45,662 nt of DNA, taken from contig JALUDX010000084.1 in the NCBI GenBank assembly GCA_027053355.1, positions 1-45,662 on the forward strand. Direction: 5' to 3'. Source of the stretch: Anaerolineales bacterium. GTDB taxonomy: Bacteria; Chloroflexota; Anaerolineae; Anaerolineales; DRMV01. Every line of letters begins with the position of its first letter. Positions within the stretch are counted from its first letter, which is position 1. Made by a program: the position numbers and the translations under genes. Positions 6,400 through 45,662 of this stretch are shown one piece after another. The notes beneath the pieces were generated by a model. It was not told the origin of the DNA. It made no database searches and worked only from the letters and a program-made list of their open reading frames with translations.

Positions 6400-6857
6400 G
6401 TAACCGTTCGGCCTTGGGGGCCCGGCCGCGGATGACGCGGATGGCAACGGATTCCCGCGGATTTTCGAGACGCCGCTCATCTGTGAGTGTTTTTCTGCGG
6501 AATCGTAATTACCTACCCTGCACCGAAAACGAGGCTGACAATCAAAGTTTCAGTAACTTTGCCATGCCATGAAGCAACATTACGCCTTGCTCGCCCTCAC
6601 CTTACCCCCGCTGCGCGCCCCCTCTCCTCTCCCATTGGGAGAGGAGAGGGGGCTGAGCCGCCACCCTTCGTCTTCGCTCAGGGCAGCGGCTCTGGGGGAG
6701 TGGTGAGGGCGAAAAGCCACTGCTTTGGCCGTGAGAAACACCCAGGGATGATTCACTCAGTCAACTCAGTCAACTTGCTCCTTGTTGCGTAGCAGGTAGG
6801 TAGTTACGCGGAATCTGCGTAATCTGTGGTTTCTCCTCGCCGAGGCGGAACAGTTAC
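6400..6857. repeat. Family I element interrupted by a family II element
   Basis: GTAACCGTTCGGCC (6400-6413) and GGCGGAACAGTTAC (6844-6857) are inverted family I ends. The right part keeps the typical words TGCGTAATCTGTGG. A family II element has landed inside at 6505-6807. Outer flanks do not form a clear 8-bp duplication. The rest of the gap to the mraZ promoter (6858-6957) shows nothing recognisable. Confidence 0.65.
6497..6815. mobile_element. MITE-like element, family II copy a, with perfect 8-bp target duplication
   Basis: The element spans 6505-6807. Its ends are inverted: GTAATTACCTACCCTGC at the left and GCAGGTAGGTAGTTAC at the right. It is flanked by identical direct repeats GCGGAATC (6497-6504 and 6808-6815); removing one copy restores a normal family I sequence. 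Inside is a near-perfect palindrome (arms CCCCCTCTCCTCTCCCA, one-base centre) and one CTTCGTCTTCGCTCAGGGC unit, bounded by TCGCCCTCACC and GGTGAGGGCGA. No transposase is encoded. Confidence 0.85.
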
Positions 6858-32291: not shown

Positions 32292-32359
32292 CTTCGACTT
32301 CGCTCAGGCTTCGACTTCGCTCAGGCTTCGACTTCGCTCAGGCTTCGACTTCGCTCAGG
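32292..32359 (+). repeat. Tandem repeat, four exact 17-bp units
   Basis: CTTCGACTTCGCTCAGG is repeated four times without change. Seventeen is not a multiple of three, so the reading frame shifts at each unit and coding is excluded. The unit shares CTTCG-x-CTTCGCTCAGG with the 22-bp array at 32769 and with the window end. Confidence 0.9.
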
Positions 32360-32409
32360 CCAGGCGCTCGGCTCATCTGCCTCCTTCTACTAAGGGAAGG
32401 AAGGGGGCG

Positions 32410-32441: not shown

Positions 32442-32614
32442 GGGGTAGGAGAGATCAAATGCGAGAACCACCAGGTAAGATTTGTCAGTCAACCAACCGC
32501 GAAGGCACAGAAAGTGGGGAGGCGGGAAACGGAGCGTGTCCGTTAGCGTCACCTTGGCGACCCAAAATCCGCGGCTATCAGTCATTATCTGCGTTCATCC
32601 GTGGTCTATTTCCC

Positions 32615-32990
32615 GTTTATTCGTAATTACCTGCGTGGTGGCAAAACGCCTCTGTGGCGTAACTGCCTGCCCTGCGCCAAAAACGAGGTTGACAAGCAAT
32701 ATTCCAATAACTCTGCCATGCCATGAAACAACATTACACCTTGCTCGCCCTCACCATTCCCCCCATGCCCTTCGTCTTCGCTCAGGGCAGCCTTCGTCTT
32801 CGCTCAGGGCAGCCTTCGTCTTCGCTCAGGGCAGCCTTCGTCTTCGCTCAGGGCAGCCTTCGTCTTCGCTCAGGGCGGAGGCTCAGCCCCCTCTCCTCTC
32901 CCATTGGGAGAGGAGAGGGGGCGCGCAGCGGGGGTAAGGTGAGGGCGAAAAGCCACTGCAGCGCTTCTGGGTAGGTAATTACGTTTATTC
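32615..32990. mobile_element. MITE-like element, family II copy b, with perfect 8-bp target duplication
   Basis: The element spans 32623-32982 (360 bp). Its ends are GTAATTACCTGC and GGGTAGGTAATTAC (inverted). Identical direct repeats GTTTATTC flank it (32615-32622 and 32983-32990). Joining the flanks rebuilds a family I right-end sequence (GGTCTATTTCCC ... CCTTGTGGCT). It shares its outer segments with copy a at 6505, but the palindromic core is reversed and the CTTCG units lie on the other side. Confidence 0.85.
32769..32878 (+). repeat. Tandem repeat, five 22-bp units
   Basis: CCTTCGTCTTCGCTCAGGGC plus AG is repeated five times; the last unit ends GG instead of AG. It sits inside family II copy b, while copy a holds a single unit. 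The difference suggests expansion by slippage or recombination after insertion. Confidence 0.9.
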
Positions 32991-33020
32991 CCTTGTGGCT
33001 AAACAGGTGTGAATTTGCGG

Positions 33021-33026
33021 TATAAT
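33021..33026 (+). promoter_or_regulatory. Possible -10 element upstream of the LCP gene
   Basis: TATAAT is present, but no convincing -35 lies at 16-18 bp. The family I element at 33048-33242 lies between this site and the LCP gene start at 33375. Confidence 0.3.
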
Positions 33027-33039
33027 GAGAGCCGTTTTG

Positions 33040-33250
33040 AGATAAACGTAACTATTCAGCCACAAGGAGATAGCGAGATAGCCCACGGATAACACGGATA
33101 GCCACGGATGCGCACAGATTTTAAAGTGCCGCCAAGTGCCAAGAAACGTTTGTGTTTTTCGCTCAATTTGTAAAATCTGTGGATGTCTTTCTGCGTAATC
33201 TGCGTAATCTGTGGTTTCTTCTTGCCAAGGCTGAACAGTTACAGACAAAC
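33040..33250. mobile_element. MITE-like element, family I copy b (reverse orientation)
   Basis: The element spans 33048-33242 (195 bp). Ends are GTAACTATTCAGCC and GGCTGAACAGTTAC, perfect inverted repeats except for one base. Flanking direct repeats AGATAAAC (33040-33047) and AGACAAAC (33243-33250) agree at seven of eight bases. Compared with copies a and c it lies in the opposite orientation and has two GCGTAATCT units. The rest of the gap to 33375 shows only the ribosome binding site. Confidence 0.85.
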
Positions 33251-33374
33251 TTGAATACCTTGGCCAACGATTCGGATGCAGGCCGTCCCTTTCCCCCTAA
33301 GTGCGGGCGCTGCTGCCGTGAAACGAAAACGCTCTCCTTGGAGGCCGAATCGTTGCTTGCCCTGTGAGGTGATT

Positions 33375-34499
33375 ATGAGCATAAAGTGGTTTTCGAGCAA
33401 ACACGCCACGTCGACGCGCCTCGTTGCCGTGGCGGCGGCCAGCGTGGTCGTGGGGATGGCCGTGGGGATAGTGCTTTTCCACTTATGGACAAAGCCTATG
33501 GCGCCGTCGTTGCCCACGTTGGTGCCCACGGCAACCCAAGGCCCTACGGCTACCTCCAGCAAGCCGACTACCGCGGCAACTACGCCTGCGGCTACTTCTG
33601 CCGCGTCGGCCCAACTTACGCCTACCCCCACACCTACCCCTTCGGCGCCGACCCCTACGCCCATGTGCGGCGGCCCTGCGAGCATGACTATCCTTGCCGT
33701 CGGCACCAACCGCGGTTTCTACGACCTGGCCGACGTCATCCGCGTGGTGCGTATTGACTTTGTCCACGGCGAAGTGTACGTGGTCCCGTTACCCCGCGAC
33801 CTCAAAGTAACCTTGCCCTCTCAGGCGACTACTTACCCCAGCCCGCAAAAAATCAATGAGGGCTACTTCTTGGGTACTCCCATTTGGGATTCTAAAGCCA
33901 ACAGCGCTGGCGGCGCGGCTTTGCTGGCCCAAACCTTGGCCTATAATTTCGGCATTTCAGTAGACCATTATGTCGTGGTCAGCGGTCAATCGTTCCAAGA
34001 TCTGGTCGACGCGGTTGGCGGGGTGCAGGTTTATTTGCCCGCACCAGTGAAGGATGAAAATCAGGCCCACGCGGACTTCCCCGCGGGCGCGCAAACCTTG
34101 GATGGCTACCACGCCTGGTTGTTGGCGCGAATCCGTAAAAACGTCGGCGATTTGGGGCGCATCCAGCGCCAGAGCATGATTCTCAAATCGTTGTTGCAGC
34201 GTTTGACCCACCCCAGCGTGTTGCCTCAATTGCCCCAATTGGTTAAACTGTACAAGCGCCTGGTGATGACCGACCTTTCGGCTCAGGATATTTCTTACTT
34301 GCTGTGTTTTGCGCAGCGCGTGCCCAACGTGGCAGACCATGTCCATTTCTACAAAGTGCCGCGCAATTTGCTCAACGAACAGGGCGAGATCATTTACATC
34401 GGCAAAGAAAAATCATCTGTGCCGCAAGATGTATTGCTTTGGGATGAGCGCTACAAACAGTGGCTGCACGACGCGTTAGAAGGACGAGTTCAACCCTGA
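33375..34499 (+). CDS. LytR-CpsA-Psr (LCP) family protein
   Basis: Probably transfers a glycopolymer from an undecaprenyl carrier to peptidoglycan, outside the cytoplasmic membrane. The 374-residue protein has one membrane helix (about 15-37), a Thr/Pro-rich linker (42-98), and an LCP domain (about 103-270). Visible LCP features are ADVIRVVRIDF with D120 and R123, the VPLPRDLKV motif (R141-D142), DHYVVVSGQSFQDLVDAVGG, and ARIRKNVGDLGRIQRQ. The ATG at 33375 has GAGG 5-6 bp upstream; the longer frame to 33276 enters the repeat. It overlaps the next gene by 1 bp. Confidence 0.9.
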   Translation: MSIKWFSSKHATSTRLVAVAAASVVVGMAVGIVLFHLWTKPMAPSLPTLVPTATQGPTATSSKPTTAATTPAATSAASAQLTPTPTPTPSAPTPTPMCGGPASMTILAVGTNRGFYDLADVIRVVRIDFVHGEVYVVPLPRDLKVTLPSQATTYPSPQKINEGYFLGTPIWDSKANSAGGAALLAQTLAYNFGISVDHYVVVSGQSFQDLVDAVGGVQVYLPAPVKDENQAHADFPAGAQTLDGYHAWLLARIRKNVGDLGRIQRQSMILKSLLQRLTHPSVLPQLPQLVKLYKRLVMTDLSAQDISYLLCFAQRVPNVADHVHFYKVPRNLLNEQGEIIYIGKEKSSVPQDVLLWDERYKQWLHDALEGRVQP

Positions 34500-45259: not shown

Positions 45260-45662
45260 CAAAGATGAAAACCACGGATTGCACGGATTAGCGCAGAGGG
45301 TAACGCCAAGGACGCCGAGGGTAACGCAGAGACGCAGAGAGAGTAACGCAGAGGCGCAGAGGAAACGGAGGCGCAGAGAGCGCAAAGGGTTAACGCCAAG
45401 GTCGCCAAGGTCGCAAAGGACGCCAAGGGTAACGCAGAGACGCAGAGGAGGCAAAGAGCGCAAAGAGAAAATTTTTTCTGATTACCCGACACAAAATCAA
45501 TCGTGCCCTGGCCGTTGTCTCATTGGCCGGCAGAACTCATCTCGTCATGCCAAATCTTTACAAAAATCTTGCTTTTCACACCCTCTCCTCTCCCCCCAAG
45601 CCGCCCCCTTCGACTTCGCTCAGGGCAGCCTTCGTCTTTGCTCAGGGCGGCGGCTTTCCCCC
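45260..45662. repeat. Dispersed low-complexity repeats at the window end
   Basis: 45265-45470 is made of short near-tandem words ACGCAGAGACGCAGAG and ACGCCAAGGTCGCCAAGG. Translations in all frames are Leu/Arg/Cys-rich and shift frame between units, so no gene is called. After a plain stretch, 45577-45662 holds CCCTCTCCTCTCCCC and two CTTCG-x-CTTCGCTCAGGGC units, a third partial copy of the family II core, cut by the window edge. Confidence 0.7.

Follow-up and report, generated by a model that had tools for sequence, protein, structure and literature searches.

The window, a 45,662-nucleotide stretch of Anaerolineales DNA, contains short repeated elements of two families, here termed I and II. 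Its segment at 32615–32990 raises the question of why family II should be found inside family I DNA. The first-pass annotation read this segment as an independent second insertion of family II into a family I element and, as both copies known to it were nested in this way, proposed a target preference or a protected landing zone. The explanation we favor, with a probability of roughly 0.78, is that family II consists of MITEs mobilized in trans by an IS66-type transposase and that the present copy inserted in family I-derived DNA, with intergenic bias and a target motif making such nesting common. This reading draws on the observed ends, duplications, copy number, target motif, enrichment and relative divergence of the elements.

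The 360-bp element and its surroundings

At 32623–32982 lies a family II element of 360 bp, without a transposase gene, with inverted ends GTAATTACCT...AGGTAATTAC. It is bordered by a perfect 8-bp duplication, GTTTATTC, 32615–32622 being identical to 32983–32990 as the annotation had said. The features that bear on the analysis are as follows.

6505–6807, + strand: second family II copy, 303 bp, inside family I sequence
32503–32614, + strand: family I-derived, corresponding to the body of the subfamily whose copies normally end ..TATTTCCC-(C)AAGGCTGAACAGTTAC
32615–32622, no strand: left copy of the target duplication GTTTATTC, from the sequence
32623–32982, + strand: family II MITE, 360 bp, inverted ends GTAATTACCT and AGGTAATTAC
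32623–32658, + strand: outer 36 bp, the end of the other family II subfamily (GTAATTACCTGCGTGGTGGCAAAACGCCTCTGTGGC), shared with copies of 196–219 bp
32659–32982, + strand: family II unit of the main subfamily, bearing an inner end of its own, GTAACTGCCTGCCCTGCGCC, from alignment with 241-bp copies and search
32769–32876, + strand: five 22-bp tandem repeats, CCTTCGTCTTCGCTCAGGGCAG, within the element
32886–32922, no strand: G+C-rich palindrome, CCCCCTCTCCTCTCCCATTGGGAGAGGAGAGGGGG, from its self-match on the opposite strand
32983–32990, no strand: right copy of the target duplication GTTTATTC, from the sequence
32991–33007, + strand: family I right-end remnant (CCTTGTGGCTAAACAGG) from the other subfamily, with decay of the outermost bases
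33048–33242, + strand: complete neighboring family I element of 195 bp, flanked by the 8-bp duplication AGATAAAC / AGACAAAC

The 360-bp copy is a mosaic, in which the 36-bp outer end of one subfamily is followed by a main-subfamily unit carrying the five 22-bp repeats; the 196–219-bp copies with the same outer end include those at L025:5075-5291 and L032:2506-2724. Because the duplication is found at the outermost ends of the mosaic, these are presumably the ends that were used in the jump. The single open reading frame of at least 100 codons that covers most of the copy (32482–32937) starts outside the element, and an Rfam search returned no match. The CCTTCGTCTTCGCTCAGGGCAG repeats are present both inside family II and at the right edge of the window (45607–45662), and a related repeat is located just upstream of the insertion, at 32300–32360. 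Relatives also contain the G+C-rich palindrome outside complete family II elements, as though an independent repeat had been captured.

The DNA on either side is derived from family I, and it is here that the annotation was only partly confirmed: the insertion and its duplication stand, while the claim that removing the element restores a family I right end does not hold in its clean form. On the left, the flank derives from the body of one family I subfamily; on the right, CCTTGTGGCTAAACAGG corresponds to the tail ..CCTTGTGGCT.. of a second ('GGTCTATT(T/C)CCTTGTGGCTGAACAGTTAC'). The rejoined site, GGTCTATTTCCCGTTTATTCCCTTGTGGCTAAACAGGTGTG, thus joins two subfamilies, exceeds every family I end in the sample by ~10 bp and contains no intact end, which argues that the host was family I-derived DNA rather than a still intact family I copy offering a clean empty site. 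A search of the genus for an orthologous empty site found none, the region upstream of the downstream gene being rearranged. Between the insertion and the next family I copy, at 33015–33047, is a TATAAT-like box (GGTATAATGAG), positioned upstream of a LytR-CpsA-Psr gene (33276–34499); in relatives, a tRNA-like sequence instead precedes the orthologue of this gene.

The existence of a separate further family II copy in family I DNA was borne out. The element at 6505–6807 has a perfect duplication, GCGGAATC, at 6497–6504 and 6808–6815 within the family I motif TCTGCGGAATCTGCG. As its empty site matches family I directly, it provides a better example of nesting than 32615–32990.

Two MITE families in the genome

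The host genome is a 2.45-Mb draft in 215 contigs. A search with the 360-bp element gave 85 matches, and the exact end pattern of family II was found at 77 ends compared to none for a reversed control pattern. Our sample comprised stretches around family II copies together with 40 picked irrespective of family II, 12 of which consisted mostly of N and were left out. In the sampled stretches, 52 family II elements of 157–423 bp had both ends and 8-bp flanks that agree with at most one mismatch. Among 61 two-ended copies in these stretches, the 8-bp flanks agreed perfectly in 41 and with a single mismatch in a further 10, whereas flanks paired across different copies matched perfectly in only 12 of 3660 pairings, indicating that the duplication is far beyond chance. 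Family II is therefore a MITE: its short, multi-copy members have inverted ends, are flanked by an 8-bp duplication and lack a transposase gene, for which none of them is long enough. A search of the sampled stretches for an autonomous family II element found none; one long end pair (L057, 1348 bp) was rejected as a chance pairing.

Another 33 family II copies, of several subtypes, were found in relatives and share both the ends and the 8-bp duplications. In named records, a family II end is matched exactly in Anaerolineales MAGs, and the nearest relatives also carry the elements. A distant relative in the same order (G241) contains MITEs of 121–122 bp whose ends are of the family II type and which have 8-bp duplications, with interiors that differ (L205:3054-3175, L207:3002-3122 and L209:2743-2864).

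Family I, which has GTAACTGTTCAGCC ends and 37 candidate copies with 8-bp duplications in the sample, is a second, and probably older, MITE family. The median pairwise identity is 95% in the main class of family II compared to 88% and 71% in two family I subfamilies, so that family II is probably younger. Three family I copies with their own duplications contain family II (L050:579-1063, L057:2342-2925 and L061:974-1470); in the sampled copies, the reverse arrangement was limited to 30-bp matches, with no family I copy lying within family II. The direction of nesting thus likewise marks family II as the later of the two to arrive.

IS66-like ends and a probable helper

IS66 ends begin GTAA. 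A GTAA-type start is found in both families (GTAAYTACCTACC in family II and GTAACTGTTCAGCC in family I) and likewise in the intact TnpC elements of the order. The latter are TnpC-only IS66 elements of 1.56–1.62 kb, at loci L090, L091, L110, L218 and L226, with 8-bp duplications and GTAACTGCTCAG/GTAACTACTCAG-type ends of the same kind as those of family I. In the order, GTAACTACCTACCC, the exact end of family II, is rare, being present in 17 of 301 genomes. In two genomes (G060 and G037) it adjoins a remnant of an IS66 TnpC gene (PF03050), and in a third (G253) a one-base variant is located ~36 bp from a TnpC match that is 74% identical to the G060 protein; the family II-type ends beside these remnants are at L095 (1114 and 2136), L096 (202) and L243 (1451, ~36 bp off the TnpC match). 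The G060 locus has both family II-type ends and no duplication. In all three genomes the TnpC loci with such ends are broken or truncated, and none shows an 8-bp duplication.

Duplications of 8 bp have been described for the IS66 members ISPpa5a and ISPpa7 (PMC3281130). Taken together with the shared end types and the TnpC-adjacent family II ends, they make IS66-type mobilization the best explanation, from which we infer a helper that acted in trans and is now absent. In this mechanism, an IS66-family (TnpC-type DDE) transposase would recognize the GTAAYTACCTACCC ends, move family II in trans and duplicate 8 bp of target. Family I would be an earlier MITE family whose GTAACTGTTCAGCC ends were recognized by a related IS66 transposase. 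Neither the Pfam DDE_Tnp_IS66 profile (PF03050) nor the G060 TnpC as query detected an IS66 transposase in the host genome, which suggests that the helper is missing, unassembled or extinct. One IS66 TnpC gene, in G001 (L081:830-2377), was not used, as it has pseudomonad-like neighbors and TnpA/B/C-like genes and is probably MAG contamination.

The elements thus resemble the single-gene TnpC (ISBst12-like) group of IS66 in their GTAA ends and 8-bp duplications, and the GTAACTGCTCAG-type TnpC ends are very like those of family I. Families I and II differ from this group in having no transposase gene, and a TnpC (PF03050) was found neither within the elements nor alongside them in the genome. 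We therefore describe them as having IS66-like ends and probably IS66-type mobilization, rather than as IS66 members. A further parallel is MITEPsy1 of Pseudomonas syringae, a 100-nt element with ISPsy2-like ends and a 4-nt duplication, which is likewise short and transposase-free, with inverted ends, a target duplication and some copies within other transposable elements (PMC3189936). The elements described here, by contrast, are 157–423 bp and have 8-bp duplications and IS66-like ends. Our literature search, incomplete in coverage and hence weak evidence of novelty, found no report of MITEs in Anaerolineae or of an IS66-derived MITE.

Target motif and nesting in family I

The insertion sites of family II are symmetric: they are A/T-rich at positions 5–8 outside the duplication and contain CA immediately ahead of the duplication, a core like GAWTAWTC, and TG immediately behind it. 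The target motif is thus a palindrome, composed of an A/T tract, CA-GAWTAWTC-TG and a second A/T tract. The same pattern is found in relatives and is weak but recognizable in 38 sites away from family I; the target sites of family I itself do not show it.

To quantify nesting, one strict and one loose classification were applied to real and simulated sites alike, with the motif learned solely from family I-free sites. Strict nesting in family I was observed for 19 of the 52 copies (37%; 17 by a slightly different strict count) and loose nesting, the class to which the 32615–32990 copy belongs, for 30 (58%). The strict expectation is 3.4% for uniform placement, 16% for non-coding placement, 11% for motif-weighted placement genome-wide and 19% for motif-weighted placement in non-coding DNA; the corresponding loose values are 6.4%, 26%, 24% and 41%. 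Nesting is therefore enriched approximately tenfold over uniform placement, and target preference, as the annotation had proposed, is supported by this excess and by the motif. Its "two out of two" overstated the pattern: in the sampled genome, where the count was set against chance, the strict classification leaves 33 of the 52 copies outside family I and the loose one leaves 22. Nor is a specific protected zone needed for most of the effect, given the non-coding and motif-weighted expectations, so that the annotation's interpretation holds in part.

What the residual means depends on how far the null can be trusted. The excess over motif-weighted non-coding placement has a nominal P of 0.002 (strict) and 0.012 (loose), and is uncertain because this null has ~61 effective sites, draws on a sample of 258 kb and approximates coding DNA crudely from ORFs. 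A motif derived from the sites furthest from family I predicts 12–14% nesting genome-wide and 20–23% in non-coding DNA, which is below the observed value and suggests that target preference and intergenic bias may not cover all of it. That the motif explains all nesting had been suggested by a version trained partly on sites touching family I, and retraining on family I-free sites weakened the claim.

This residual is what a true preferred landing zone would produce, whereby family I sequence, or a protein bound to it, is recognized beyond the motif in a homing strategy that spares genes. In keeping with such a zone, 7 of the 52 insertions share, within one mismatch, a single register in the family I repeat (GCGTAATC/GATTACGC), and in relatives 11 of 33 family II copies are strictly nested. 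However, the nested sites rank in about the top 1–2% of family I positions when scored by the motif learned outside family I, which is what ordinary target preference would give. As, in addition, between 22 and 33 of the 52 copies have inserted elsewhere and the small null may have generated the residual as an artefact, we regard a landing zone as doubtful. Nesting might also be passive, with insertion anywhere and survival in non-coding DNA only. Family I makes up 3–4% of the genome and ~14–22% of non-coding positions, which alone raises the strict expectation from 3.4% to 16%. This falls well short of the observed nesting (19/52 against 16%, P = 0.0002; 30/52 against 26%, P = 1e-6), and the palindromic motif is visible even at sites off family I; a purely passive origin is thus disfavored and distinctly unlikely. 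That the 360-bp unit arose by recombination or slippage between repeats, with incidental 8-bp flanks, is highly improbable: although the unit combines two family II subfamilies, contains five 22-bp repeats and lies in surroundings chimeric for two family I subfamilies, its perfect duplication directly abuts the outer ends, and 40 other copies show the same arrangement at different sites.

Under the favored reading of a MITE moved by an IS66-type transposase, family II would have entered older family I-derived intergenic DNA at 32615–32990. Nesting would be common for two reasons: insertions are mainly intergenic, where family I accounts for about one fifth of the sequence, and the target preference is often satisfied within family I, by sequences such as CTGCGTAATCTGCG. 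The nesting itself is real, and intergenic bias and the target motif account for most of it.

Families I and II are new MITEs of a known kind, and the nesting event is real and fairly ordinary. They record two abundant MITE families in uncultured Anaerolineales, tied to IS66-type transposition by their ends, and provide a measurable target motif for family II. The locus also offers a caution for "two out of two" cases, as abundance in non-coding DNA and a short motif can mimic deliberate nesting. It seems unlikely that the older MITE family is a recurrent landing site of a second IS66-type MITE family beyond what motif and intergenic bias provide; if it were, such safe-haven targeting would mean that insertions accumulate within each other and genes are spared.
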